From positions 186,001-250,000 of the forward strand of contig MCGO01000056.1 in assembly GCA_002104985.1 (NCBI GenBank): a stretch of DNA of 64,000 nucleotides, read 5' to 3'. The position numbers and the translations under genes are program-made. The stretch's first letter is position 1; every line of letters starts with the position of its first letter. The stretch comes from Rhizoclosmatium globosum (lineage: Eukaryota; Chytridiomycota; Chytridiomycetes; Chytridiales; Chytriomycetaceae). The notes beneath the pieces were generated by a model. It had not been told where the DNA came from and searched no databases. It worked only from the letters and a program-made list of their open reading frames with translations. Shown here one piece after another: positions 5,488 through 59,289 of the stretch.

Positions 5488-7089
5488 TTAGTGAAGGTTC
5501 TTGATGACAGCCTGGGTGAACTGGGTGTTGGTAGCCTTACCACCGAGGTCTCCAGTACGGAACTGACCCTCAGCAATGGTCTTCAAGACAGCCTTTTGAA
5601 TGCGCTCAGCGTGGGCATCCAACTTCATGTGACGCAACATCATAACAGAGGAGAGGAGGAGGGCAGTTGGGTTAGCCAAGTCCTTTCCAGCGATATCTGG
5701 GGCAGTACCGTGGACCTATAAGTAAAAATAGAATTCAATGAATAAGTATAGGGAATGAATGCAATAAACAAAAAGAAACATACACTCTCGAAGATGGAGG
5801 CCTTTCTACCAATGTTTCCAGATGGAGTCAAACCAAGACCACCAATCAAACCAGCTCCCAAGTCAGACAAGATGTCTCCGTACAAGTTTGGCATGACCAT
5901 GACAGTGTCGCTGAAGTCGGTTGGGTCTTGCACAATCTGCAAGCAAACACGGTCAAGAAGGGCGTCTTGGACCTTGATGTCTGGGTAGTTCTTGGCAACG
6001 TCCAAAGCAGTGGCCAAGAAGAGACCGTCGGCCTGCTTCTGAATGTTGGCCTTGTGGACGATGGTAACGTTCTTACGGCCGATGGAACGGGCGTATTCGA
6101 AAGCGTACTCAGAGACACGACGGGAGGCCTCTTCGGTAATGAGCTTGATGGATTGAACGACTCCGTCAACGACCTGATTGATTTCGTAAGATAAAGTTTC
6201 TTCGGAGGAAGGTGAGGTATTCGTTGTTATCGAATTCCTATATCAGATCACTGATACTCCAGGTTTTGAGATTCAAGAATGCATTCGGAATTCGTCCAGT
6301 ATTTTCCATACACTGAGGTGATTTCGTGAGAGTATACTTACAGTGTGCTCAATTCCGGAGTATTCACCCTCAGTGTTTTCACGGATGAGGACAGTGTCGA
6401 CGTTGTCGAATGGAGTCTTGTAACCGACAATAGATTTGCAAGGACGAACGTTGGCGAAGAGGTCGAAAGTTCTGTAAGGAAGGGAAAGCCATCGATAAGT
6501 CAAATTTTTCTTTTTTTTGGAGTTCCCTTATCTCTGACGTACCTGCGGAGGGTCAAGTTAAGAGAAACGTGTCCCTTTCCGATTGGGGTCTCAAGAGGGC
6601 CTAAGGGAAGGGTGGAGTGGGTTAATACAGTGTGTTGTTGAGAAATCGCGATATGAATTCAAGGGCTGATAAGAAATCGCCCATCGCGAAATGCAAGATA
6701 GAAAGGGGAACTAGCTTGGAACGCACCCTTCAAGGCAATCTTGTTACGGTTGATGGAGTGCAAAGCCTCGTCTGGGATGGCAGTCTTTCCGTTCTTCAAG
6801 ACTGGAGTGACGTTGACATCCTCCCACACGATTGGAACCTTATCGGCCTCGAAGATCTGCTTGACGGATCTAGAGATTTCTGGGCCGATACCGTCTCCTG
6901 GAATCATGGAAACAACTCGGTATCCATTCTGTCGATGCAAGGATATCGCATTGGACGCTTAGCACGGTGATCATGGCACCTAGGCAAAAGCAGACTTACG
7001 GGGGCAAAGGTTCCCTGGTCGTTGGTGGTGTTGGCGAAGGTTCGTCTGGCAGACACGACTCGGGAGACGTTGTTTCTCAAGCGGAACAT
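5488..7089 (-). CDS. IDH2: Isocitrate dehydrogenase [NAD+], catalytic subunit, mitochondrial
   Basis: Oxidatively decarboxylates isocitrate to 2-oxoglutarate in the TCA cycle, as a hetero-oligomer with a regulatory IDH1 subunit. Exons 7089-7000, 6928-6727, 6600-6543, 6471-6342, 6173-5784 and 5715-5488 give 365 aa. Residues 1 to ~25 are Arg/Ser-rich, as in a matrix-targeting peptide. Diagnostic motifs are [11 protein letters not shown], the substrate loop [32 protein letters not shown], the VHKAN lysine and [17 protein letters not shown] with metal-binding aspartates. The substrate-loop sequence and the intact catalytic residues match the catalytic (IDH2/alpha) rather than the regulatory subunit. 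It is convergent with the RING gene. Confidence 0.95.
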
Positions 7090-11941: not shown

Positions 11942-14129
11942 TTACCCCTTCCAACTCCACCCCTCACACTCTCCACACGCCTCCATGACTTTACATTCAG
12001 GTACAGGCCCTTCAGAAACAAGATATTCTTGAATCACACGGTCGATACTGTGCCACCGCATGTCCAGGTCCGAGCCTTTATTATCGTATACGCATTTCTT
12101 GCCTGAATGGCATTTTGACTCGAGGGCGTAAGCTGCGATCCAGCAGAGTGACCCGGATGAAAGACATTCGCCCATGTAGATTGGGTCCTTGACGTTTCCA
12201 AAGTGGTAGATTTGAAGAGTTGAGAGGTATGAAGAATAGTCGGGGATTTCGTGTGGATTTTCGTCCAAGATGTTTTGTGTGCTGCTGTCCTGGGTATCTG
12301 GTTGAAGTGGTTTCTGGTTGCTATTGTTGTTCTTTTTCTGCTTGTCGCTCGAGTTCTTGGATGATTTGTTGTTCTTGGACGTCTTGGTAGTCTTTGGGCG
12401 TTGTTGTGGATAGGTGGATTTGGATGTAGTGGATGAATTATCGCCAGGTATAGTGGGCAATAGTTCTGGTATCAATCCGATGCGATTCGCATACATAAAG
12501 TCGCCGGGAGCTTCGTAGGCAAAAACAGGCAGGTCGTGAGTAAGGCCAACTAATGAGGCCAATGCGCCACCGAGGGAATGTCCAGTCAGCCAAATGGTTT
12601 TAGAAGAAGGGTACCAGAGGCTAACCGCCATATAGATTGTGTTGGCGAGATTGTAATAACTGTGAGACTAGTGTAAGTATGACAATTCAAACTCAAGAGC
12701 GTACTCACGAATTAGAGAAAGAGGTTGCAGAATATAAACAGTTCATATCGCAAGTGCTTGTTGCTGAATCGGCGCACTCGCATACAGGGGACCAATTGGA
12801 TTTGACCTTTTGGATTTGAGTCGAGGGAAATAGTATTAAAGAAAGAGGGTTCAAAGTGATAAATCGGATAGTTAGAAGATAGGACAACGAAGAATAGATG
12901 TGATATGGTGTTGGTGTGGCCTTTGAAAGGTTGAACCAAGGGAAAAAAAGGAGAAAAAAATTTCGGCACGACTCGTTCCCATTCCTTATCCAACTCATAT
13001 CATCGCAAGTTTATAATCCTTAAGTATCCATCACAAGACAGTGACTGTCTCTCTTAGTTAGAAGTGCAGTCCTCTGCACATAGTTCCATCCAAACCAACA
13101 TCGAAACTATCCAGAGTGACAACATATCCAACGCGTTTCTGAATGGCGCCTTACAAGCTACACACTAATCTCTGTCTCATTTGAACTATTCATTCGTTCA
13201 TTTACCTTTCCGCAACAGCAGGAAAACATCATATTATCGTTAAACTTGTCTCTAGGAGCAGTGGGACCACCACCAACAATAGGAACGGACAGTGAGGTTC
13301 CTTTTAGCGCAATAACAAGAAGGTCGTTTGCGTCGTCTGCAAAGACATAGCCGCGGATACCATCACTTGTCCAACCAAAGCGATCCGATAGATTGTATGG
13401 AGGGATGTCGACCCATCCCGCCCCGCCTGGTTCTATAAGAGGAGAAAAGTCAGGATACGTGGATGGAATTAGGTTTCGACTCTCGAGTTTACGCACCGGC
13501 ATACGAATTTGAAGTCATACGGGCAAGAGCAAGGACCGTCTGCGGGTCCGAGGCATTAGGCAGCAGCATATCTTTGTGGAAGATGTTTCTATCGTTTGGC
13601 TTTGTTGAGAAGTAACGGTGAGCAGAGCAAAGTGGCACGGTTCTCCACACACACCACACACACACACGACACACACCTTCACTCGGGCCGCACTCCACTT
13701 TGGCACTTTTCCTGAGACGGCACTCAGCGTGAATCCAGTGCTGAATTCGGGGTTGTCAAAGAGCGGATCAGACGTGGTTGTTGCCGTTGATGACTCATTC
13801 TTCCCAGGTGTTGCCACTCGCAGCCACGCACTTCCTGGCGACGCAACAAAGTCGGTGCGCGGTGACAGTGTTTGGCCAAAGAACGAGAAGGTTGATGACT
13901 CATCGCTTTTGAAGAAGGTGTGGTCGTTGCGGTGGTGGTCAACTGGTTGCGCTCCAAACACTGACGTCAGCCGCAGTGTCACTTTCCTTCCACTTCCACT
14001 TCCACTTGCTGAATATCCATTTGTATTGCTGTCACTGCCGCCGTGTAGCTGGTATCCCTTGCTGGAGCTGGAGCTGGAGCTGGAGAATGCCACACTGCCA
14101 AGCCCCAAGAGAATCACTAAATAAAACAT
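11942..14129 (-). CDS. ATG15: Autophagic-body lipase Atg15 (class 3 lipase)
   Basis: Vacuolar phospholipase that degrades membranes of autophagic bodies and reaches the vacuole through the MVB route. Exons 14129-13677, 13599-13497, 13432-13206, 12806-12709 and 12659-11942 give 532 aa. An N-terminal hydrophobic signal-anchor (FYLVILLGLGSVAF) is followed by a Ser-rich stretch, the NDNMMFSCCCGK motif, and the nucleophile motif WLTGHSLGGALASL (Ser near residue 322). A Ser/Lys/Asn-rich insert precedes IYHFGNVKDPIYMGECLS, ESKCHSGKKCVYD and a terminal Cys-rich CEGW segment, all typical of Atg15. Intron 3 (399 nt) is long. The first donor could be GTGTGT (used) or GTGAAG two codons earlier. A GGGTAAGT at the stop codon leaves open an extra 3' exon. 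The start codon lies inside a tandem repeat (14120-14193). Confidence 0.88.
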
Positions 14130-41447: not shown

Positions 41448-44400
41448 TCAAAAGATCATATTTGCACAATGTCCGTATTCAACCATAAAGGCACTATTTA
41501 CATCTTCCTTGATTTGTACAAGCGCTTCTTTCCATAGCTTATCATTATTTCTCACAAGCTGAACACCTTCTGCGAAACACTTTACCAAATTCAAACACTT
41601 TTCACCTTCCCAATTATGAACGAGGGCTCTCAAATACTTTCGAAATCGCAATGTATCAGTCTCGATAGGTTCTGTGGTGGAATACAGCCAGTCATTCAAG
41701 AGTTGTTTTACGTCCGAAAATGAAGACCGTCCAAGAAGTGTAGGTACAGGCGCCGGCTTCGCGACGAATATACGATCAAGCGTAAGTGGTGCGCATTTTG
41801 GAATTGATCCCCTTCTAGGTTGGGGGACAACTGGCTGTGGCTGGGCCTTGTTCGCTGGTTTCTTCAGCGCCATTAGTTCCGCCCTGATTTCTTCAGGAAG
41901 GCCATCCACCATACTCCAATCAATTTGCGATGCTGATTGAAACAAGGATGCGCGATCTGGTTCTTCTACTCGTGCCCGTTTTGCAGGTTCAACCAGACCC
42001 AATTCGTCTGTTTCTTGATCCAACTCTGCATCAACACTCTTCCTCTTTGTTGTAAACTTCAGCAAGGTTTGGCCTTTCATATTTGCAGACTTGTTAACTA
42101 GTTTTGAAACATGGATTCCTACTCCTCGCAAGTCCAGTGCACCCACTCCCAATTCCTTAAATAGGGCCAGCGCTTCTCGGTAAAGCCGATCTTCATCTAT
42201 AACAGACGCTTCAAGCGTTTTTGACTTTGAAAAGTCCAAGCAATGCCCGCATCCCAAAAACTTTGTGGGCTCCCCGTCGTAAAGCTTCTTCTTCACTTTC
42301 ACTGTAATATGACGACCTTGGACGCCAGATTTCTCCATTCGTTGATGGACTTCTTGTGATAATTCACGTACAAAGGCGTAAGCTTCGTCCATCGTTTGAA
42401 AACGAACACCCCAGTTCACTTCCGCACCAACCGATTGTCGAGTCTTGTTTTCCAAAGGCCGTGTATCAATTCCTCTACAAAACTGGTACAATTTCTGTCC
42501 TGTTTTCAAGTTCGTAAGCAAACCCCCAACCAAACGTATAAAACCCAACTCACCATTCACATCCCCAAACAACTTTTTACATTCCCCAACAGAAATCGCT
42601 CGCAACTCTCCACAAGTCTTTACCCCAATCTCCTCCATCTGTTTCCCAAGCACATACCCAACCCCAGGCAAATCCCCAACATTCAACCCCTCAAAATACG
42701 CCTCAACCTCTCCCCGCTGCACCCAAAACACACCATCCGGTTTCGCCTTCTTGGTCGCAACCCTCGCAACAAGCATACAATCCCCAATCCCAATACTCGC
42801 ACAACACCCACCCGTCTCCCTCTCCACTCTCCCTCGAATCAATCCCGCGATATCAAGTGCACTCACGCCAGAAGTTGAAACGCGCTTCGAAACGTCAATG
42901 TACGCTTCGTCGCAGGACACGACCTGGATCTCGTCACACTCCTGCACGAGTATCGCGTACAGCGTTTTACTAATCGAATCGTACTTTTCGAATTCGTAAG
43001 GGAGGGCTATGATGGCTGTGTGGCCGGCTGAGATTGCGTCTGGGGATGAGGAGAGGAGTTGCTGTGCGCGGCCGAGGAGCATTCCGTTCTTTATGCCGTA
43101 TTTACGGGCTACGTAGTTGCAAGATGCGATTTCGGAGGTGGAGTATGAGTTTGTGCCTTTTGCGGGTGGGGAATCTGAAGTGGAAGATTCAAAGTTTCCT
43201 CCTGTTCCTTTTGAATGACATATTACGACTGGCTTTGATTTGTATTCAGGGCGCGAAAGGAGTGCGACAGAGGCAAAGAAACAGTCCATATCGATATGCA
43301 TTATAACTCTTTCGGTTGGTGCAGCAGGTGCGGGAACTACAGCTCCACCTCGTCTAGACCTTGGATTGCTAGGTCCGGCAGCAGCCTTCTCTGCACGTCT
43401 TTGATCTTCCTGAAGCCCAATCACGTAGTCCCGTAAATCGCTCTTCCAATTAGATATTTTAGAAAGTCGGGAGGACTGGTAGTACTTCGAAAGGAATCCA
43501 GACGTTGCCGTTGTATTCTTTATCGCAAATTCTGTTTGTTCTCGATTACCAATTCCAGTGGGAGGAACATTTGAACGAACAGGTTGAGCAACAGGCACCG
43601 GAATGGAGGGAGCTCGATTTGGAGGCAGAGACTGTGCGGAAATTGATGGTTGTAGATTCATAGGAGGAGGAGGGGGTGGAATTCGCGATTGAGTGGCTGG
43701 CCTTTGTGTTCGCGGCATTACTGGTGTCTTCTGGAGCGACGTGTTTCGAGTCGGGGCTTTTGTTGGAGTAGTCGGTTCTGAATTGTTATTGATATGAGGG
43801 GAATAGACTGGTCGTTTCGAAGCTGACAGCCTTATTGTAGGTGTTGTATTCCCAATCCCAACAGTTCGTTTGAGCTGTTCAATTTCCATGGCAATATCAA
43901 GAATACTACGAGATGGTGACGGAGATTCTTGAGAAGGTAGATCTATTTTGGATTGTGGTTTTTGTGGTGTTGATGGTGCAACAGTTGGAAATGATGGTTT
44001 TGGATTTGGAGGTGGCTTTTGAGCTGCAACAAACGTCGAAGACAATGTCGGTTTTTGAGCAAAGGAAGACGCAGAGGACGAAGAAACCAATGAGTTCATT
44101 GAAGATGCTGATGCTGAAGAGGCTTGAGGGATTGCAGGAGGATTTCGTAGAGCAACAGATTTCTCAGGAATATCAGAGACATTCTGAGGAATCAAAGATT
44201 TCGATGAAGTAGCAGCTGAAGAAGACGATGATGTGAATGCGAATGGCTTATTGGGGCTTGAATTCAATGGTGCAAAGAGCGACGCGCTTGACTTTTGAAT
44301 GATTCCATACTTTTGCCATGGCAGCAATTTCCCGGCTTTAATTGAATCATGAATCCATTGAGGGTCTACAATTCGACGGTTCTTCCACAGTTCAATCTGA

Positions 44401-44948
44401 ACAGAGGTTGTTTGCAGGAATAAGAATGATGATGACGGCTGCATTTGGCACGCACCTTTCTATCTGTCAACGACACTGCAATAATGTGTGTACAGCGAGT
44501 TGTGAGCATATCTTGAACGGTTCCACCATGCTACAAAGGACAGTGAGTGAATTGAACGTGTTGTTTGCAGATACGAGAGTAGGAAGTCGTTATGGCAATC
44601 AAACGCAAACATGAAGATATCCTTTGATAACTTCACTTGATTCGTTATAGTTCAACTTCTGTTCATGGAAACGGGCTTGTATCCGTTGATGTACTTTCGG
44701 ATCCATGCACCAGTTCCTCGCCCTTCCCATTTGGCAGTGATATTTTCTACGGATGTTTTAATGCTGCTAACCTTGATACAGAGTGTTTTCATGTCGAGGA
44801 GGGAAAAGTCCGGACCGAGCCATCCATCGAACCAGAAGACCGTGTCTTTCAAGATTGTGCTTGCTGTGCCAGAACCATAGCTTTCGTTCTGGCGCTGCTG
44901 CTTGTCCATCTTGGCGGCCATATACTCCCGCATTCCATCGTACGCCAT
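41448..44948 (-). CDS. REV1: DNA repair polymerase Rev1 (Y-family dCMP transferase)
   Basis: Translesion polymerase that inserts dCMP opposite damaged bases and scaffolds Pol zeta. Exons 44948-44772, 44530-44456 and 44396-41448 give 1066 aa. In order: YMAAKMDKQQRQ lead-in; a BRCT domain (to about residue 110) with HGGTVQDMLTTRCTHIIA and WIHDSIKAGKLLPW; a disordered Pro/Ser-rich linker; the catalytic core from about residue 445 with MHIDMDCFFASVAL and VVSCDEAYIDVSKR metal-binding carboxylates; the little finger; one ubiquitin-binding motif (IDWSMVDGLPEEIRAEL); and a C-terminal four-helix domain. DRC7 and REV1 are convergent with only 23 bp between stop codons, so their 3' UTRs must overlap. 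Confidence 0.94.
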
Positions 44949-48250: not shown

Positions 48251-50511
48251 TTACTGGTTCATCACTGCAACAGCAACACCAATAACAATTACAGCCACAG
48301 CCAAGTAAATAACAGACCCTAACCCTGAAGCATCTTTGGCTCCCTTCTCACGGCTCAACACACCCTTCAAGAATTGTTTCCTAGCCTCAGCATCAACAAA
48401 CCTTGGCTTACCCACTTTCAAACCTTCCCATCCCTTCTCCTCAACCCACCCAGGAACCTTTGGCACAACCCGTTTCGTCGGGTACCCACCATTCAACAAA
48501 ACCTCAAACGGACATTCAGCACCCAACCGCCCAGCCGCAACCAACCCACTCGTAATCCCGTCCTCATGAAACCCATAATTCGTCCACGCGCCCGCGAAAC
48601 TCGTCATCCGCGTGTTCTGAATCGCGTTCAACGAGTCCTGCGCGGCAATCGTCTCAGGACTGTACAGCGGGTGTGTGTACGAAAACTCGGCAATCACTTT
48701 AGATGGGTTGGGCTCGTACAACGGGTTCATTGTGACAAAGACGTGGCCAAAGTCTTTTGGGTTGATGTGGGGTTGCAGGTTGTCCATCCAGTAGGTGAGA
48801 CACATTTTTTGGGAGGTTGTTGAGGTGTCGTTGGGGATGGAGGTGAGGTAGTTCCAACTGGCCCAGGCGAGTTTGCGCTTAGGCATGAGCTGTTGTTGGT
48901 GATGGTGGTTGTTAGTCAGGGTTTGAAGAAAAAGAGGAGAAAAAAATTTTGGAAGTGGGGTCACAAAAAATTTTGTATGATGTGTTTACCTCTTCATCAC
49001 GGTGCAACACGGCTCTGTTGTTCAAGAATTTGATAGAGCCCAAGATTTGACGTTCTTCGGCCGTGGCATCATCGCCAAGGATTTTCAGGGCTTGGTCAGA
49101 GTGAGTAGCGAAAATGACGTGATCAAACACTTCTTTCTTTCCAGTAGAATCGGTAACAGTTACAGTTCCTTCCGCAGTGTTTCGCACAACGCTTGTGACG
49201 ACCACGTTGAGCCTAGCGTCCGCAAGTTGTGAGATGACTTTCTGCACATACACACGGCTGGAAATGTCAAGAGATTAGAAGGATTGTGAGGGCAATAACT
49301 CAATTACCTTCCACCGTCGACAGTCATCCACTTTGGTCGGTCAGAGACTTGCAACAAAATGTGGTTTCGCATGAAACGGACGAGGGTGAGCAATGGGAAC
49401 TTTTCAAAAGTCATATTGGCAGGGGTGGACCAAATGGCGGCAGTCATGGGGACAATGTAGTTTTGGTAAAAGAACTTGTCGTATCCGAACTTTGCGAAAA
49501 AGTCGGCAAGAGTCATTTTGGAGAATGGGTGAGCCTGATTGAAACGATTTGTTAGAGTTGCATTCGGGTTGTGATATTACTGATTTGGTGTTGGTCGGTC
49601 GAGTTTGGGTTTTGTTTTGCTCCAAGTTTCCTCAGATTCTGCCGAACTTTTCTGAACTGCTTCCGCTCTATCGTTCTCTCTTCCTTTCATGTCTATCCAA
49701 CCTTGAATGAATTCTCCGGAATGCGTTGTTGCCATTTCAACTCCGCCATTCTAGCGACAATGTTGTACTCTTCTAACTCGTCCGCTGTCGTCTTGGACGA
49801 TATCTGCCTTTCTATCTGTTCCATCCATTCCACCTTTTTCCTATCTGAGCCTGTCAAAGTCGCTAGAAACAAACCTTTGAAGAATCCTTGCGAACATTTC
49901 CGTTCCTGTCAAACTCAAGGTCATCAGCCTCTTGAGCAATCTGATCCGCCTGAGTATTAAATCTGAGGACTTGAGAGACCATACTCCACATGTCCCTCGA
50001 GAGCAAGTTTTCGCGTTGAGCAAACAGAGTGTTCAAGTTGTTTCCATTCCATTCGAATTCACCCTTGTTTCTAGAGACAGAGAAGGACATGTCTGATTCC
50101 TGGAGGGGCACTTTGAGGGCATCGAGGAAGTTTAGGAAGTTTGGGTCTGTGTTTTCAGCAGTAAGTACATTTTTTTTTTGGACTTGAACAAGACAATAAT
50201 GTGTTGATGCTTGGCACTGGAGTGGGAAAGAAGGGGGAAAACGTACAGGTGATAGGGTTGCAGACAATAAAGCCGGTATCGACACCAATCTGCTTTGAAC
50301 CATCAAGAGAGTCGATAGTGACAGTGTTTGAGTGACCGCCAAAGTACTTTCCGGCTTCAAGGAGAGAGACAGAGTACTTGTCCCTTTGCTGGTTCAGAAG
50401 CCAGGCAGCAGAGAGACCCGAGATACCGCTGCCGATGATGGCAACACGCTTTGGCGCCGATGCAGAAGTAGATGAAGTAGTAGTAGTAGTATTGGCTTTG
50501 ATGTCAGGCAT
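48251..50511 (-). CDS. FAD-dependent oxidoreductase, COG2907 (amine-oxidase fold), tail-anchored
   Basis: Exons 50511-50247, 50146-49875, 49534-49308, 49257-48990 and 48889-48251 give 556 aa. The Rossmann motif KRVAIIGSGISGLSAAWLL (GxGxxG at residues 27-32) is followed by LEAGKYFGGHSNTV and GVDTGFIVCNPITYPNFLNF, diagnostic of COG2907. Further blocks are MTAAIWSTPANMTFEKFPL, VDGGSRVYVQKV, VIFATHSDQALKIL and WTNYGFHEDGITSGL. A C-terminal helix (SVIYLAVAVIVIGVAVAV) probably anchors it in a membrane. Homologues sit beside cyclopropane-synthase-like methyltransferases in bacteria and form the N-terminal half of plant cyclopropane synthases; the bacterial UfaD desaturase of furan fatty acid synthesis is in this flavoprotein class. 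It is divergent from the DUF1365 gene. Substrate unknown; lipid acyl chains are the best guess. Confidence 0.9.
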
Positions 50512-50762
50512 TTGTTGTCTTTGGGTGATCTCTGGTTTGAGGATACTTTGTGAATGATAATTATGCACGGGTTGGGGATGCTTTGGTTCGGTGGTTGTTG
50601 CTTTGAAATTCGGTGGTGATGGTTAGGGTTTCTCCGTTGCTTGCTTGGAAATTGGGTGCGCTGTGATTTCCAATTTTGTCCGAACCGAGTTCTTGCTTTG
50701 ACAGTTGATGAAGAATTGGATCGACCAACCAAAAACGAGCATTATCAATTGAGTCAGAGTGA
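50512..50762. promoter_or_regulatory. 251-bp divergent promoter of the FAD oxidoreductase and DUF1365 genes
   Basis: The start codons of two genes whose bacterial homologues are functionally linked lie 251 bp apart and point away from each other. This arrangement would allow co-regulation. No specific factor-binding site could be named. Confidence 0.55.
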
Positions 50763-52716
50763 ATGATGTCTGCCTTAGTACCCCTTCCCCTTTCAGTGCT
50801 AGTGCCCCTGGTAGGCCTAGTGGGAGTAGTAGCCACGATCCCACTATTTGCAAGTCACTTGTTCAAAGTACGGGTAGCGAGCCTGTTTGCTGCACCTTCT
50901 ACCACTGCCACTGCCACTACCTCTGCCACTGCCTCTGCTAGGGATTCATGCGACCGCCTCTTCTTTGCAATTACCCGCCACGTGCGCCTGGTTCCACGCA
51001 GACACGCATTCGTGTTTCCCGTTGTGTACGCGGGCGTGGTTCTCGATGCATCGACTGGATCGAACAAGAAGAACCGCATCGCTCGAAACAAGTGGGCCGT
51101 GCTGTCCGTGCACGATAAAGATTATTTGGATAAGGAGGACAAACCAATCAGGGAAAAGGTCCTGGCTGCGATCAAGGCTGCGGTATGCACTCCCTTTCCC
51201 CCACAGTCCCTCCCTCTCTCTCTTACAAATTACAAAAACTAATTAGGGAACTCACACACCTGTTCCTATTGGCCGCATTGAACTCGTTACTGGACCCCGC
51301 TTCTTTGGCCTCCCCACCTTCAACCCCCTCAATGTTTACTACTGCTTTGATGAACAACAAGACGGTGATTCTAAGGAACCAACCCTTCGCGTAACTATTC
51401 TCGAAGTAAACAACACGTTCGGTGAACGCCACGTTTATATTTGTGATGACCGCAATCGGTTGCCTACCACTAAACAAGGATATCACTCAAGCTATGTCAT
51501 TGACCGCAGCTTTTTCGTGTCTCCCTTTAACAATCGCTCGGGAGTATATGAAACTCATATTGCGCGTGTCACGGAAAACAAAATGGGGGTACTGCTGATT
51601 CTAAAGGACTATGCTGCAGACAAGAATGAGTTACAAGCTGTCACTGACGACACAGTAGTCCCATCTCTTTCAACACAATCAACAACTAAAGATTCGTCAG
51701 TACCACGTGATACCTCGAATCTGACAAAGCATCTGATTGCAAGTGTGGAAGGAACCTCTGTCCCCTTCTCCGCATTCACAACTGCAGTCCTCCTCTACTT
51801 CCATCCATTCACAGTCTTCCTCACTCTCCCCCGTATCATGTCTGAAGCCTGGAAGATTGCATACATCAAAAAACTCACAATCTACCAAAAACCAAATCCT
51901 CGGCGAACAACTACGCCTGTCGGTACTGGAAAAACGATCGTTCCCCTCCCCGAATCCGCTTTCGATACATATGCACGAACTTATGTGCTTGATCATTTCG
52001 TGAAGCAATGTGCCGCTCATGATTCTGCTCTTCACATTACTTTGGTGGACAAGACATCCATCACAGTCACATCCTCAGGCGTGATCCCCTTCACATCCAC
52101 AATCTCTGCTCCCCACATCCACCTCCTCAGTCCATACCTCTTCTCCCGCCTCCTCATTGACTTTACAAACCCATCTCGAGCTCTCTCCACAACGTTTGTC
52201 AGCGGCGAATGGAGTGCATACACACTCACTGACATTCGCGACTTTCTCCGTCTCCTAACTCCCACTCAAACCCAACTCCTCGCCGACAAAAAGAGCTCGA
52301 AACAAATCGGTGGCGGTGGCGGTGGTGTATACACGACCCTCGCATGTTGGTTCCACGGCTTTTACCATACAAGCACACTCACAACCTTCCCACCCTTCTC
52401 CTCCACCTCCACCACCGCAACCCCGGCCCTCATCCCCGTCACTTCCGAAGAAACATTCCGACGCGTGTTTTGGGGGTCCCTGGAAGTCTGGGCGAGTGAA
52501 TGGGCGTTTCGCGCTGTGACGCGGTTCGTTGTGGATCCGTATGACGTTTCTGGACGTATTTCGCGGGAGTATTCGAGTGTGAAAAGTAGTAGTAGTAGTG
52601 GTGATATAAACGTTTGGGAGGCAAGGGAAGGGGTTTTGGTTGGTGAGATGGATGATTGTGTCGCTGTAATGGAGAGGGAGGAGAAACGGTTTAGGATTTT
52701 GGAGGCGTGTCTTTGA
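50763..52716 (+). CDS. DUF1365 (COG3496) protein with extra C-terminal domain
   Basis: Exons 50763-51182 and 51247-52716 give 629 aa. An N-terminal hydrophobic segment (ALVPLPLSVLVPLVGLVGVV) is probably a signal-anchor. The DUF1365 core follows: RHVRLVPRRHAFVFPVVYAG, GRIELVTGPRFFGLPTFNPL, then NVYYCFDEQ, ILEVNNTFGERHVYI, SFFVSPFNNRSGVY and the family ending around HPFTVFLTLPRIMSEAWKIA. After about residue 385 come ~240 extra residues. One part (IHLLSPYLFSRLLIDF, FVSGEWSAYTLTDIRDFLRL) looks like the N-terminal subdomain of cyclopropane synthases. The function of DUF1365 is unknown; its neighbours in bacteria are COG2907 and COG2230 genes, as here. It lies 349 bp upstream of the first methyltransferase on the same strand. 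Confidence 0.9.
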
Positions 52717-52785
52717 GATTCCTGTTTTCTTTTTGGAGGGATTTGAGAGTAGATTGGGTTGTGATAGCAGATTTGTTCATTTGCA

Positions 52786-52791
52786 AATAAA
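52786..52791 (+). terminator. AATAAA polyadenylation hexamer of the DUF1365 gene
   Basis: AATAAA about 70 nt after the stop codon, before the first methyltransferase gene. Confidence 0.4.
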
Positions 52792-53065
52792 CAAAAGTAA
52801 TGGAGAGCTGGTTGTGGACATGTATTTTAATTATTTGGTTACGATAAAGGTGGTGGAAGACGATCCGATTTCGTTGGCTCAGGTGACTCTGTTTCAGGGT
52901 TTCTCGAGCAAGGAAAAATTTGTTTTGACCAGGATTTCCAATTCTGCTGCTTCGAAATCACGAATTATCAATCATCTCCCTGGCCTAATTTACATTAGAA
53001 GGAGGCCTTTCACCCACCTTCCATCCTAAAAAGTATCCTAAAACCACCACTGGAAACCAGAGCAA

Positions 53066-54781
53066 ATGGCACCAACAGCCCTCAACACCACCACGCGCAG
53101 ACCTGTCTCCCGTGCCCATTCGGACACTTCTGAGGACACAAACGAAACCCTCTCTCACCCTCCAAGTCCTCTTGCCAACGGAAAGACTGCCTTCAGAACC
53201 GAAAGCGGACCAAAGGAGCTTCTGCCAGTCTCCCTTCCCGCTGCCCCAGCTCTCTCCAGCCTCGTCTTGTCTCCAACAACTGCCATCATTGCCACTGTCA
53301 GACGTGCCTGTCTCGAGGTAAATACTACTACTACTACTACTACCACAAACCCAAAATATCATACGTTGTGAATTAACGCGATACTCGTCCCTCTTTCCCC
53401 CATCAAAAAAAAAAAGGTTCTTTCAAAACTTCAAACCGGAAGTATCACAATCATCGATGCCAGTGATCTGAAGCATAAAGAGGACGGACAGGTGTACGTG
53501 TTTGGGGAGAAGAATGCCAAGACCCGTGCCACTATCCGTGTTCTCAAGAAGCGGTTCTGGTTGCGTTTGGCGGTGTACAGTGCTCTTGGATTCGGTGAGA
53601 GTTTCATGTACAATGAAGTTGAGGTGGATGGACTTACTGATTTGATTATCGTAAGTGCTCTTGTTTCTGAATACTGAGGGAAGGCGATTCCTGACTCGTT
53701 TGTATACAGCTCTTTATTCGCAACCGTGAACACCTTGCGGCCATGGAATTGCTTCCATTCGGATTGAACGCTGTTCTCAACACGCTTGTGCACTCCAAGA
53801 TCCCAAACACTATTTACAACAGTCTCATCAACATCCAGGCGCACTACGATCTTGGAAATGAGATGTTCGAGAGCTTTTTGAGTCCTGATATGACCTACAG
53901 TTGTCCTATTTGGGAGCTTGGAAACGAAGACGAGAGTTTGGAGTCTGCGCAGATGCGAAAGATTCACCGTATGCTCGAGCTCGCCAAGATTAGAAAGGGC
54001 GACCACGTTTTGGAAGTCGGAACTGGGTATGTCTTTTATCGTTGGATGTTTGGCAGAAAAGGGTTTGGAGATTAATTGCAATTGGTATTTTAGATGGGGA
54101 GCACTGTCTATTGAAGCTGTTCGTCTCTACGACTGTACCGTGACAACCCTTACTCTCAGCAAGGAGCAAAAGGCTCTTGCCGAGGCGCGTATCGCCAAGG
54201 CCGGATACAGCGACCGTATCACTGTCCTCCTCCAAGATTACCGTCTCCTTGACCCCAAGGAGCACCAATTCGACAGAATTGTCACTGTAGAGATGCTTGA
54301 AGCCGTTGGACATGATTTCATGCCCGTGTTCTTTGAGCAAGCTGACCGTCTCCTCAAGAAGGACGGAATCCTGAGTTTGCAAGTCATCACGATGGTTGAG
54401 CAGCGATACGAGGCATACTGCAAGGAAATGGACTTTATTCAAAAGTACATTTTCCCAGGAGGGCACTGTCCAAGTGTCACGTCGTTGATTGAGGCTGTGA
54501 ACAAGGGAAGCAAGGGAAGACTGTTTGTTGACGAGCTGGACAACATTGGGCCACACTATACCAAGGCATTGAGGTTGTGGCGTGAGGCATTCCTTGCCAA
54601 CTTTGACCGTGTGAGGGAAGAGACCGGATTGCACCACGTTTACACACAGGAGTTCAAGCGGAAATGGGAGTATTACTTTGCATACTGTGAGGCAGGATTT
54701 GCCACACGTGCATTGGGAGACATCCAGGTCCGATTGGTTCGGGAATGTAACGAGGACTTGGTTGCTGGCATCCCTCTGTGA
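53066..54781 (+). CDS. Cyclopropane-fatty-acid-synthase-like methyltransferase, copy 1
   Basis: SAM-dependent enzyme of the COG2230 group, which transfers a methylene or methyl to double bonds of phospholipid acyl chains. Exons 53066-53317, 53417-53650, 53710-54026 and 54094-54781 give 496 aa. A Ser/Thr-rich N-terminus precedes the small subdomain (FWLRLAVYSALGFGESFMYN), then INIQAHYDLGNEMFESFLS, MTYSCPIWELGNEDESLESA (retaining the bicarbonate-site Cys), the SAM motif VLEVGTGWGALSIEAV, DRIVTVEMLEAVGHDF (retaining the Glu) and FIQKYIFPGGHCPS. As in plant and alphaproteobacterial relatives, the E. coli LHTIG histidine position is Gln (SLQVITM). The 3' exons are nearly identical to copy 2. It probably acts at the ER or plasma membrane with the neighbouring oxidoreductase. 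Confidence 0.9.
53842..54778 (+). repeat. Homogenised 3' segment of the methyltransferase pair, copy A
   Basis: Matches 55971-56907 at a constant offset of 2129 bp without indels. The 67-bp intron (54027-54093) is identical to 56156-56222, while sequence upstream of ~53842 is clearly more diverged. This pattern indicates recent gene conversion between the tandem paralogues. Confidence 0.85.
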
Positions 54782-55108
54782 TTGTGTTATGATCGAAAAC
54801 TATGATCCATCTTTCATTCCTTGTTCCTTCACTGTTTCTACACTTGACTTTCTTAATAAAAATACATACACTCGTACCGAAATTATTGTTTGGATAGCTA
54901 AATATCTTATAACCTGGATGAATGGGGAGAAACTAACGGAAAAATTCTGCGTGACTTGTCTCTTACAAAACGGCAGCACTATAACACGGTATGTGTGATT
55001 TCATGCAGCAGTTGGGGCATCCAGTACCCAGCCAAACTCTCTCTATTTAACCACGATTAATGCATCCACGTGGACTAACCTCGCTTATCCCACTCGAAAA
55101 CAGACAGA
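54782..55108. other. Intergenic region between the two methyltransferase genes
   Basis: The 327-bp region holds the copy 1 polyadenylation signal (AATAAA, 54855-54860) and presumably the copy 2 promoter, including a CTCTCTATTTAA stretch near 55038-55050. I see no gene in it. Confidence 0.5.
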
Positions 55109-56910
55109 ATGCTTCGCCGCCCAACATCATCATCCACTGCCAACGCCAGCAGCGACAGCCTAGACTCCCTCAACACCGCCTACGAAGACCAGGACATTGT
55201 GAAGAACGTGCGATCCTGTTCCGTTGACCTTGGTAGACCCAAGCTTGGCTATCAAAAATCCATGGGACCTGTGATTCCACCATTACAAAACCAAGACATG
55301 TATTCAATGCTTTCGAATGCATTTTGGAATCCGTTTGGAGCTGTTGCTTTATTGGGTAACGTGTTGTTTACTTTTTTTTGATTGAGATGTGTTACTTTGT
55401 GGCTGACTGTTCTCCTGATTCATAGCGAAACGAGAGTGTTTGAAGGTTATTTAGTTTTATCCCTTTTTGGTGGTAGTGGTGTCCCTTACATTTGCCACGT
55501 GTTTAGGTGTTTGAGAAACTCAGAACCGGGAATGTGACATTTATTGATGAGACGGGAGTCCCGTATGTTTTTGGAGAGAGGAATGATATTAGTGACCGTA
55601 GCGTCACTGTACGTGTGTTGAAGAGCGTGTTTTGGCTTCGCTTGGCAGTGTACAGCGCATTGGTGGGTTACAGTTACAATGACATAAAATGAATCATTGA
55701 GCGACTATTCAACAGGGCTTTGGTGAAAGCTTCATGTACAATGAAGTCGAAGTAGACGGGCTCACGGACCTTATTATTGTGAGCAACACAGCCACTATTA
55801 CCTTTGCACTCAAATTTCATTTTCACACTACACGCTAGCTATTTATCCGTAACCGTGAATATTTATCCGCTATGGAGCTGCTTCCGTTTGGGTTGAACGC
55901 CGTCCTCAACAGTCTCATTCACTCTAAGATCCCAAATACTATTTACAACAGCCTCGTCAACATCCAGGCTCACTACGATCTTGGAAATGAGATGTTCGAG
56001 AGCTTTTTGAGTCCTGATATGACCTACAGTTGTCCTATTTGGGAGCTTGGAAACGAAGACGAGAGTCTGGAGTCTGCGCAGATGCGAAAGATTCACCGCA
56101 TGCTCGAGCTCGCCAAGATTAGAAAGGGCGACCACGTTTTGGAAGTCGGAACTGGGTATGTCTTTTATCGTTGGATGTTTGGCAGAAAAGGGTTTGGAGA
56201 TTAATTGCAATTGGTATTTTAGATGGGGAGCACTGTCTATTGAAGCTGTCCGTCTCTACGACTGTACCGTGACAACACTCACTCTCAGCAAGGAGCAAAA
56301 GGCTCTTGCCGAGGCGCGTATCGCCAAGGCTGGATACAGCGATCGCATCACTGTCCTCCTCCAAGATTACCGTCTCCTTGACCCCAAGGAGCACCAATTC
56401 GACAGAATCGTGACTGTAGAAATGCTTGAAGCCGTTGGACACGATTTCATGCCCGTGTTCTTTGAGCAAGCTGACCGTCTCCTCAAGAAGGATGGAATCC
56501 TGAGTTTGCAAGTCATCACGATGGTGGAGCAGCGATACGAGGCATACTGCAAGGAAATGGACTTTATCCAAAAGTACATTTTCCCAGGAGGACACTGTCC
56601 AAGTGTCACATCGTTGATTGAGGCTGTGAACAAGGGAAGCAAGGGAAGACTGTTTGTTGACGAGCTGGACAACATTGGACCACACTATACCAAGGCATTG
56701 AGGTTGTGGCGTGAGGCATTCCTTGCCAACTTTGACCGTGTGAGGGAAGAGACCGGATTGCACCACGTTTACACACAGGAGTTCAAGCGGAAATGGGAGT
56801 ACTACTTTGCATACTGTGAGGCAGGATTTGCTACACGTGCATTGGGAGACATCCAGGTCCGATTGGTTCGGGAATGTAATGAAGACTTGGTTGCTGGAAT
56901 TCCTCTCTAA
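55109..56910 (+). CDS. Cyclopropane-fatty-acid-synthase-like methyltransferase, copy 2
   Basis: Tandem paralogue of the preceding gene and also 496 aa. Exons 55109-55355, 55426-55445 (20-nt microexon), 55507-55662, 55716-55778, 55839-56155 and 56223-56910. The microexon supplies AKRECLK, which matches VRRACLE of copy 1 before the conserved V..KL.TG start; without it the frame cannot be joined. Compared with copy 1 it has two extra introns, one within the N-terminal segment and one between SAL and GFGESF. Residues 1 to ~100 differ strongly (SSSTANASSDSLDSLNTAYE against copy 1), whereas residues from ~200 on are almost identical, with the same SAM and acyl-site motifs. A different N-terminus may mean different location or partner. 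Confidence 0.88.
55971..56907 (+). repeat. Homogenised 3' segment of the methyltransferase pair, copy B
   Basis: Counterpart of 53842-54778. Differences are scattered, mostly third-position changes in the last exon; the shared intron is identical by eye. Confidence 0.85.
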
Positions 56911-56967: not shown

Positions 56968-59289
56968 TCAATATACATTATCGAAAATTACTTTGCTTCC
57001 AATGGCTGCAGAAGCAGCACCAAGACAAGCAACCAACTTGGCCAATTGATAGACGGCCACCAAATTCTGCTTTCCATCAACGTAAGCATCCACAAGGTCA
57101 TGCGCCTTTCCATTCACAATCTGCAGAATATCCTATACCCGCCAAATGGGGTTTAAAAAACTACGAAAACCTAAACAAGAAAAAACTCACATTCACAGTC
57201 TCCGAAGGCTCCAAAACGATATCCCCAGCCCCACCAACCTCTTCTTCCTGCACAAAACTAAATTTCGCCGCAACATCCGGATACCTCCATCCCAATTCAC
57301 ACAAGAAGACAACCCGCCTCTTCTTTGCCCCCAACTGCGCTCCCCGAACCTCAACAGTAACCATCCCTTTAACACAACAATCCCCTTCATCATCCTTCAC
57401 ATCCTTCCACCCAACAACCCTCGCCCCACCCACACCCACACCCACACCCGCACCAGTACTCACAGCATTCACAGCAACAGGCAACCTCGCAGAAACAGCC
57501 CCACTCAACCCCCTTCCAACCTCCTCCAACGCCACAAACCGTCTCCGAACCCCCTGCACAACCCTCTCAACCAGCCCCCGCATCATCACACCCGCCACCG
57601 CCGCGCCGCCGTCATTCCCATCCCGATCCCCGCCGCCATCATCATCAGCCAACTCCGCCATCCCCGGGAAATAAAGCCCACAAATCCGTTGGACCCAGTG
57701 ATACGCGAGCCCGCCTGCTTCCTTTGCGTTGAACCGCGCGGCGCTGGCGGGGTTTGGCGAGTCGATGCCTGTTGTGTCTCCGTGGAACAGGGCGTGCAGC
57801 GTGAATGTCTGGGAGACGTGTGGTTGGTTCGTGGGGATGGTTGTTTGTTGTTGTTGTGTGGAGGTGGAGACTGGTTCGAGGATTACGATTTGTTGTTTGG
57901 GGAGGTGGTGGAAGTGGAGGGTTATGTGTTTTTGAGGAGGGGTTGTTGTTGTTGTTGTTGTTGATGGTTGCGTTGTTGGTTGTGGGAGGGGAAGGGTGAG
58001 TTTTAGGGAGTAGTCGTGGGGTTTGTTGTATGAGGATGTTGGGGATGGTGTTGCTGGCTTTTTGCTGTTGGGTGAGTTTGTGGTGGGGTTGTCAACGTCC
58101 ATCATGCTTGGTGTTGTGGCGATTCCATTTGGTTGTTGCTGAGATTTGTTGATGATTTCGAGTTTGATGGGATCGTCTGAGGAAATCATGTTGAGTTGTG
58201 TTTGTGGTTGATGGATGACGAAAACAACTGACCCTTTTTCAAGTCATTCCAATCTAGTACTTGCTGGTAAAGAACAAATAGTGGTCGAGGCAATGCTTGC
58301 GCATCTGCAGCTTCTACGCGAGATTTCGTGACGGTGACATGCAATCGCTCTTGCAAAGGAAGTGTCGCTTTCAACAACGACTCCAAATCACGATCCACAG
58401 ATTCAAGTTCAATGCGCTTTGTTTCATTTTGCTTTAGCAGCAGCAGTTTCTGTGCAGTGAGAGCATCCTGAGAAGTCTTGAGTCTGGGAAAGAATGTCAG
58501 TTTTCGGGCAATCAGAGTTCTGTTCTCTCTCTCTCACCTCTTTCGCTCTCTCAATTCAAACTGTAATCGATTCAGCATCAACTGATGTTCATTCGTGTAC
58601 ACTGTCAAGTCATCGTTATCTTGACCCTCTTCAATTTCATCCACAGTTGTGTCCATGTCATCGACGTGAATGACCCCGTCATCGTCCTCCATTATGCCAT
58701 TTACATCTGAAGAGTCGTCGATGCGTCTTTTCTTTGTAGTTGAAGAAGAAGAAGACGAGGCTGAGGGTTTTGCCTTTGCAAGAAAGTCATCAATGTCATG
58801 CAACTGAATGTCGTTGTAGATGTATCTTTTGGTTACATTAACAAACAAGAGACTGAACAGCAGACAAACAACAAGATAACATACTCATGTGCACGCATCT
58901 TCGCAATCAAACGCCTCAGGTGATCGCGCTCGTACTTCCACGACTTTTCTTTGAGCACGGCCTGGTCGAGGCGGTGTTTTGCATCGGTTGTTGCGGACTT
59001 TGCGGCGCGTGTTTGAGCCAGTTTCGAGCGTGTTTTTGAGAGAAGTTCGGCAAATGCGGCATCGGCTTCTGCGACTGCGGCGGCGAAGGGCGTCTTTGCG
59101 GCGTCGAGGGCGCGTTGGTTTGCGGGCGTCAAAGGCGTTTTTTGATTGTTGTTGTTGGTGTTGTTGTGAAGTTGTTGTTGGTGCGTGCTTTGCTGGTTGC
59201 TGTTGTTGTTGCTCGTTGTACTGCTGCTGCTGCTCGGCTGCGGTCTTGCGTACTTTGAAGCAATTGAAGTAGGTGGTTGGACTGGTGGC

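Follow-up and report, generated by a model that had tools for sequence, protein, structure and literature searches.

This analysis concerns a compact locus of the chytrid fungus Rhizoclosmatium globosum (family Chytriomycetaceae), at positions 48251-56910 of the window, that is, of the whole 64-kb stretch of DNA analysed here (C373:186001-250000; the assembly has 420 contigs and totals 56.9 Mb), which we consider likely to be a biosynthetic cluster for furan fatty acids. The locus comprises four intact genes, each with introns of the GT-AG type: on the minus strand, gene A, encoding a putative UfaD-type flavoprotein, and on the plus strand, gene B, encoding a putative UfaO-type DUF1365 protein, followed by genes C and D, encoding predicted UfaM-type methyltransferases of the CMAS family. 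Between the divergent genes A and B lie 251 bp, possibly a shared promoter, and gaps of 349 and 327 bp separate B from C and C from D; the gene models thus confirm the arrangement described in a first-pass annotation of this DNA. The functional assignment draws on homology and linkage, and the key to it is gene B: DUF1365 is the UfaO family in the available part of PMC7380195, and it is this family that tells furan from cyclopropane synthesis, so that furans are the best reading. The lipid-modification role proposed in the first-pass annotation is, accordingly, supported by homology, and among the products it named, cyclopropane, methyl-branched or furan acyl chains, the last is favored through DUF1365 and the first appears less apt.

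In Rhodobacter sphaeroides, according to the accessible text of PMC7380195, cis-vaccenate is methylated by UfaM, UfaD converts the methylated chain to an 11-methyl-10,12-diene by desaturation, and UfaO is reported to be both necessary and sufficient for formation of the furan from the methyl-diene, with the oxygen coming from O2; in Rhodopseudomonas palustris, FufM adds a second methyl group. The authors also mention eukaryotic homologues. The genes for UfaM, UfaD and UfaO are, respectively, RSP2144, RSP1091 and RSP1090 in the former bacterium and RPA2569, RPA2571 and RPA2570 in the latter (PMC7380195). That these families are neighbors in bacteria, as previously claimed, is borne out. In Azospirillum B510, genes for a sigma factor and a cupin are divergent from a run of genes for an FAD (flavin adenine dinucleotide) oxidoreductase, DUF1365, CFA and DUF3833, and together with the 60 loci recovered in a genome scan with the Azospirillum DUF1365 protein, a draw biased to Azospirillum relatives, all three families are present in 57 of 61 DUF1365 loci. 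The exceptions are three loci with DUF1365 at a contig end (L043, L064, L074) and one without the other two families (L058); 8 of the 57 have a CMAS gene of the other, FufM-like type. In a second draw, 197 of 398 Pseudomonadota genomes match a protein in which DUF1365 and CMAS are fused (E <= 1e-60), and in all 12 best loci, the genes for UfaD, UfaO and UfaM adjoin one another, the latter two as separate frames. A Rhizobium plasmid carries, near sigma factor and ChrR genes, a variant set, the product of which may differ from that of the furan sets (L017, 3958-7344), with a UfaD-type flavoprotein, DUF1295 in the place of DUF1365, and a FufM-like CMAS protein.

The family assignments, too, are borne out: Pfam identifies Amino_oxidase (2.7e-18) and NAD_binding_8 (7.6e-13) in A, DUF1365 (7.8e-52) in B and CMAS in C and D (5.9e-75 and 7.1e-75; 252 bits, with a curated cut-off of 27). 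In the entire assembly, DUF1365 occurs at this locus only, and the same holds for matches to the last exon of A, the sole exon of A that was searched. Because these two unique matches both adjoin two CMAS genes, the clustering appears to be more than chance. Bacterial contamination, already dismissed in the first-pass annotation on account of the introns, is ruled out: all four genes are spliced, the nearest relatives of their products are from chytrids, and genes for REV1 and a THOC5-like protein lie on the same contig.

The methyltransferases C and D differ from bacterial cyclopropane synthases (CFA) at two of the active-site columns, which are numbered here by residues of the E. coli enzyme (H240, H266, C139, E239 and Y317). 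Where the CFAs of E. coli and L. acidophilus have His at both the H240 and H266 columns, C and D have Ala and Gln, as do all 29 further fungal rows of the alignment (including P0001, the D orthologue) and all 15 rows of the DUF1365-CMAS fusions. Gln likewise fills the H266 column in 50 of 51 UfaO-linked bacterial rows, with one gap; the Ala at the H240 column of these rows is there by construction, the group having been chosen by its EAVG motif. Cys, Glu and Tyr at the C139, E239 and Y317 columns are present in C and D, as in CFA, but they occur in other CMAS types too and are not decisive. In phylogenetic trees, C and D group with the CMAS proteins that neighbor UfaO, apart from CFA, and belong to a single clade of fungal UfaM-type proteins (support 100), with Siphonaria nearest. 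These residues and trees suggest that C and D are UfaM-type enzymes; as such, they would be expected to methylate an 18:1 acyl chain with no ring closure. A cyclopropane pathway, in which C and D would be cyclopropane synthases, A a helper as in the cotton enzyme, and B would have some other role, is suggested by membership in the CMAS family, by the Cys at the C139 column, by the public names of the matches listed, which say cyclopropane synthase, and by plant enzymes that combine an FAD oxidase domain with CMAS and make cyclopropane (available part of PMC3132707). Given the altered His columns, the grouping away from CFA, and the linkage to a UfaO family member in the order of the furan operon, we consider this reading very unlikely.

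C and D are themselves tandem copies in which the catalytic part has been homogenized, a feature that is new here: up to the stop codons, they differ at 26 of 940 bases, share an identical 67-bp intron and are identical in 292 of 292 residues, whereas their fronts are only 67% identical over 144 amino acids (aa), that of C being nearer to Siphonaria (71% over 154 aa) than that of D (60% over 144 aa). This pattern fits an older duplication followed, more recently, by gene conversion in the catalytic part, and the identity of the last 292 residues rules out that C and D are a UfaM and a FufM. D shares 99.2% identity with a protein from Rhizoclosmatium JEL0117, and the matches listed include no public protein equal to C, the best being P0001, so that the public annotation may lack gene C or have merged it with another model.

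Protein B is identical to P0121 of R. globosum, a deposited protein of 628 aa that begins one Met downstream. It retains the conserved DUF1365 residues, in the sense that 19 columns are invariant among 12 proteins of which B is one. Downstream of DUF1365, it contains a CFA N-terminal-like domain and a tail, with no methyltransferase domain, and it matches the bacterial DUF1365-CMAS fusions from DUF1365 through into their CFA N-terminal domain. Thus, in what seems to be a new domain setting for UfaO, the fungal protein carries what looks like the remnant of a CFA N-terminal domain, as in a UfaO-UfaM fusion; proteins of about 650 aa with both domains in one chain are numerous among bacterial and metagenomic sequences (P0136-P0187). 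Nesting of the fungal UfaM within these fusions is favored by the approximate likelihood ratio test (SH-aLRT 97 at two forks; fungi with fusions 95.7), in trees that contain the fusions without unfused relatives from their own lineages, but a single clade of fusions (p 0.341) and a grouping of the fungi with operon types (p 0.121) both survive approximately unbiased (AU) tests, which weakens the case for nesting. The extra domain and tail of B, together with its replacement of K158 by Arg and the fungi in which UfaM adjoins UfaD with no UfaO listed (see below), could suggest that UfaM and UfaD act to produce methyl-branched or methyl-diene lipids and that the altered fungal UfaO makes no furans, serving instead for binding or as a scaffold. 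This appears quite improbable: the 19 columns hold in B, the gene is single-copy and linked, and it is one of many fungal DUF1365 genes, implying selection.

Protein A is identical to P0241, likewise deposited for R. globosum. It is an FAD-binding, amine-oxidase-like protein homologous to the flavoprotein that accompanies UfaO in bacteria, with 45% identity over 81% to P0320 of locus L031; the flavoprotein tree includes bacterial members from loci with separate UfaO and UfaM frames and none from true fusion bacteria. A stretch with mean hydropathy >=1.6 occurs at the C-terminus in 43 of 65 top UfaD rows (mostly fungal, partly of unstated origin) vs 1 of 44 lower rows (bacterial or of unstated origin), and at the N-terminus in 13 of 17 fungal UfaO proteins examined vs none of 26 DUF1365 proteins, bacterial or of unstated origin. 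Because such terminal stretches, which A and B possess, are nearly absent in the bacterial relatives examined, the oxygen-using steps may reside on the endoplasmic reticulum (ER) or lipid droplets. The second intron of A (49535-49874) is 340 bases long, compared with 50-100 for its other introns, and contains a forward frame, open for about 45 codons, with a coding-like look.

Features of the locus and of the unlinked FufM-like gene (positions in the window unless a contig is named)
Feature	Position	Strand	Basis
Gene A, UfaD-type FAD oxidoreductase (putative), 556 aa, 5 exons	48251..50511	-	gene model, Pfam, identity to P0241
Exons of A	50247-50511, 49875-50146, 49308-49534, 48990-49257, 48251-48889	-	
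C-terminal hydrophobic stretch of A, aa 536-554, possible tail anchor	48260..48316	-	hydropathy only
A-B intergenic stretch, 251 bp, possible shared promoter	50512..50762	.	gene coordinates
Gene B, UfaO-type DUF1365 protein (putative), 629 aa, 2 exons	50763..52716	+	gene model, Pfam, identity to P0121
Exons of B	50763-51182, 51247-52716	+	
DUF1365 domain of B, aa 67-358, interrupted by intron 51183-51246	50961..51900	+	Pfam
Apparent CFA N-terminal-like remnant of B, aa 365-487 (P0121 numbering)	51922..52290	+	hhalign 97.7% to bacterial DUF1365-CMAS fusions
Gene C, UfaM-type CMAS methyltransferase (predicted), 496 aa, 4 exons	53066..54781	+	gene model, Pfam, active-site columns, trees
Exons of C	53066-53317, 53417-53650, 53710-54026, 54094-54781	+	
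Homogenized tract of C, 26/940 bases differing from D	53842..54781	+	C-D alignment
Gene D, UfaM-type CMAS methyltransferase (predicted), 496 aa, 6 exons	55109..56910	+	gene model, Pfam, active-site columns, trees
Exons of D	55109-55355, 55426-55445, 55507-55662, 55716-55778, 55839-56155, 56223-56910	+	
Homogenized tract of D	55971..56910	+	C-D alignment
FufM-like CMAS relative (putative), 386 aa, 5 exons	C360:208967-210587	-	gene model, identity, bacterial linkage

Synteny in fungi, read only from the locus tags and contigs of the 120 matches listed for each of the three proteins, presents a mixed picture. Eight other chytrids have all three genes among these matches. In three of them, the genes are tightly clustered, Siphonaria JEL0065 (tags 5598-5600), Phlyctochytrium planicorne (1300, 1301, 1303) and P. 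bullatum (9689, 9691, 9692), with UfaO between UfaD and UfaM as in bacteria and R. globosum. In Hyaloraphidium, all three are apparently on the same contig, and in Podochytrium, UfaO and UfaD are paired, whereas in Chytriomyces MP71, Spizellomyces 'palustris' and Powellomyces hirtus, the genes are on different contigs. UfaM and UfaD occur together, with no UfaO among the matches listed, in seven fungi (Synchytrium microbalum, Boothiomyces JEL0866, Nowakowskiella JEL0407, Chytridiales JEL0842, Terramyces, Basidiobolus and Funneliformis), and on different contigs in at least 11 more, 4 of which are known only from contigs shorter than 30 kb. The synteny that the first-pass annotation suggested looking for in chytrids is, by these tags and contigs, present in the three tight clusters with bacterial order and absent where the genes lie apart. 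The separation of the genes in several chytrids could also mean that a true furan pathway is encoded here by genes whose clustering is a relic of an ancestral operon, devoid of joint regulation and now without function. With the narrow divergent gap between A and B and the compact arrangement shared by R. globosum and three other chytrids speaking for the contrary, we deem this somewhat unlikely.

Several observations weigh against a furan cluster. The residue K158, invariant in 12 DUF1365 proteins excluding B, is Arg in B, and fungal UfaO proteins share only 23-33% identity with the Azospirillum DUF1365 protein. C and D share with CFA the Cys of the C139 column, as do 24 of the 29 further fungal rows (the other 5 have Ser), whereas the UfaO-linked bacterial rows have Ser (44) or Ala (7). 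The likeness to the tested enzymes of R. sphaeroides and R. palustris is indirect, through families and gene order rather than direct alignment, and the attribution of UfaD to the flavoprotein family of A derives from gene order and from a plant match in the accessible part of PMC10940516. The Rhodobacter substrate is cis-vaccenate, which R. globosum may lack. Plant proteins that join FAD oxidase and CMAS make cyclopropane, and a set of just A and C or D would be compatible with that product. Finally, the cluster is not kept across all chytrids, and the scattering among related fungi that was named beforehand as evidence against a clustered pathway is indeed seen in several of them.

Outside the locus, CMAS matches were detected on C101 (two genes), C360 (one) and C406 (one, below the cut-off). 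The C360 protein, the closest PDB match of which is coclaurine N-methyltransferase, is 40-43% identical to nine CMAS proteins of the other type, all from loci with a UfaD-type gene, vs 24-29% to UfaM types. In a set of 115 alphaproteobacterial genomes, DUF1365 is present in 55 and a C360-type gene (E <= 1e-40) in 6; the latter gene lies 1.6-4.5 kb from DUF1365 in five of the six, the sixth being devoid of DUF1365. This bacterial linkage suggests that the unlinked C360 gene is FufM-like, a new assignment made by linkage and relatives rather than by direct comparison with the tested RPA0924. The two neighboring CMAS genes on C101 (35200-39847) have motifs that are presumably those of sphingolipid C9-methyltransferases; C and D lie apart from the C101 gene in the tree, where the C101 row has a very long branch.

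By analogy with Rhodobacter, a plausible scheme would start with C or D transferring a methyl group from S-adenosylmethionine onto a membrane-lipid acyl chain with one double bond; A would then, with FAD, desaturate the methylated product to a methylated conjugated diene, and B would insert an oxygen atom from O2 and close the furan ring, these oxygen-using steps perhaps being held on the ER or lipid droplets by the hydrophobic ends of A and B. The C360 methyltransferase could add a second methyl group. A role in stress or light response or, as the first-pass annotation proposed, in protecting the membranes of zoospores is conceivable, the light response of cfs1 in Coprinopsis cinerea (available part of PMC8805025) being a lead only.

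The scan of the flanks covered 10 long frames outside the cluster, out of 27 that include the cluster's own. On one side lies a single long open frame for a REV1-like DNA polymerase with IMS and REV1_C domains (41451-44459, minus), and on the other, a gene resembling THOC5 (57164-58243, minus); the weak match to a class-3 lipase (11945-12667) is distant from the cluster.

Furan acids are known from fungi, including the king oyster mushroom, where 9D5 exceeds 9M5, and a survey of about 20 fungal species is cited in the same source (accessible text of PMC9883336); in the open-licence literature, as far as it was available, we found no fungal genes named for them. The R. globosum cluster supplies candidates, and the FufM-like gene would lead one to expect dimethyl-furan acids, which predominate in reports on that mushroom. 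With a full candidate set (UfaM, UfaD, UfaO and FufM-like) in a fungus for which life-stage RNA-seq exists (BioProject PRJNA789147, cited in PMC8887899), the question of the fungal furan genes becomes testable. Proteins that in fungi bear the name cyclopropane synthase or tuberculostearic acid methyltransferase may, then, be furan pathway enzymes. Tentatively, and with less than even confidence, one could go further and envisage that fungi took up a bacterial furan operon with a fused UfaO-UfaM, which was split over two copies, one keeping DUF1365 and an idle CFA N-terminal domain (UfaO), the other the CFA N-terminal domain and the methyltransferase (UfaM); that the many fungal 'cyclopropane synthases', perhaps including Cfs1, are first-step furan enzymes; and that furan acids are a light or oxidative-stress lipid across fungi.

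Among known systems, Cfs1 of C. cinerea, annotated as a CMAS-family cyclopropane synthase, light-induced and linked to fruiting (available part of PMC8805025), resembles C and D by annotation and may belong to the fungal UfaM clade. The cotton and Sterculia enzymes likewise associate an FAD oxidase-like domain with CMAS, but they are fused and make cyclopropane acids, and no DUF1365 partner is mentioned in the accessible part of PMC3132707. Closer are the bacterial and metagenomic DUF1365-CMAS fusions (P0136, P0159, P0175 and others), with the methyltransferase part of which C and D group; these form one chain, whereas the fungus has two genes, with B lacking the methyltransferase. The pathway of R. 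sphaeroides and R. palustris is built from the same families, and the order UfaD-UfaO-UfaM agrees with the R. palustris gene numbers and the bacterial loci; the chytrid differs in having introns, a divergent UfaD, a doubled UfaM, a UfaO with a CFA N-terminal-like domain, tail and N-terminal helix, and a UfaD with a C-terminal hydrophobic stretch. In Arabidopsis, Omata et al. matched three proteins, all on lipid droplets, to the four bacterial enzymes (available part of PMC10940516): AtUFAMD1 (AT3G23510), AtUFAO1 (AT1G30130) and AtFUFM1/LIME1 (AT4G33110). These are putative eukaryotic counterparts of the same set, and there a single protein matches both UfaM and UfaD, for which the chytrid has separate, clustered genes.

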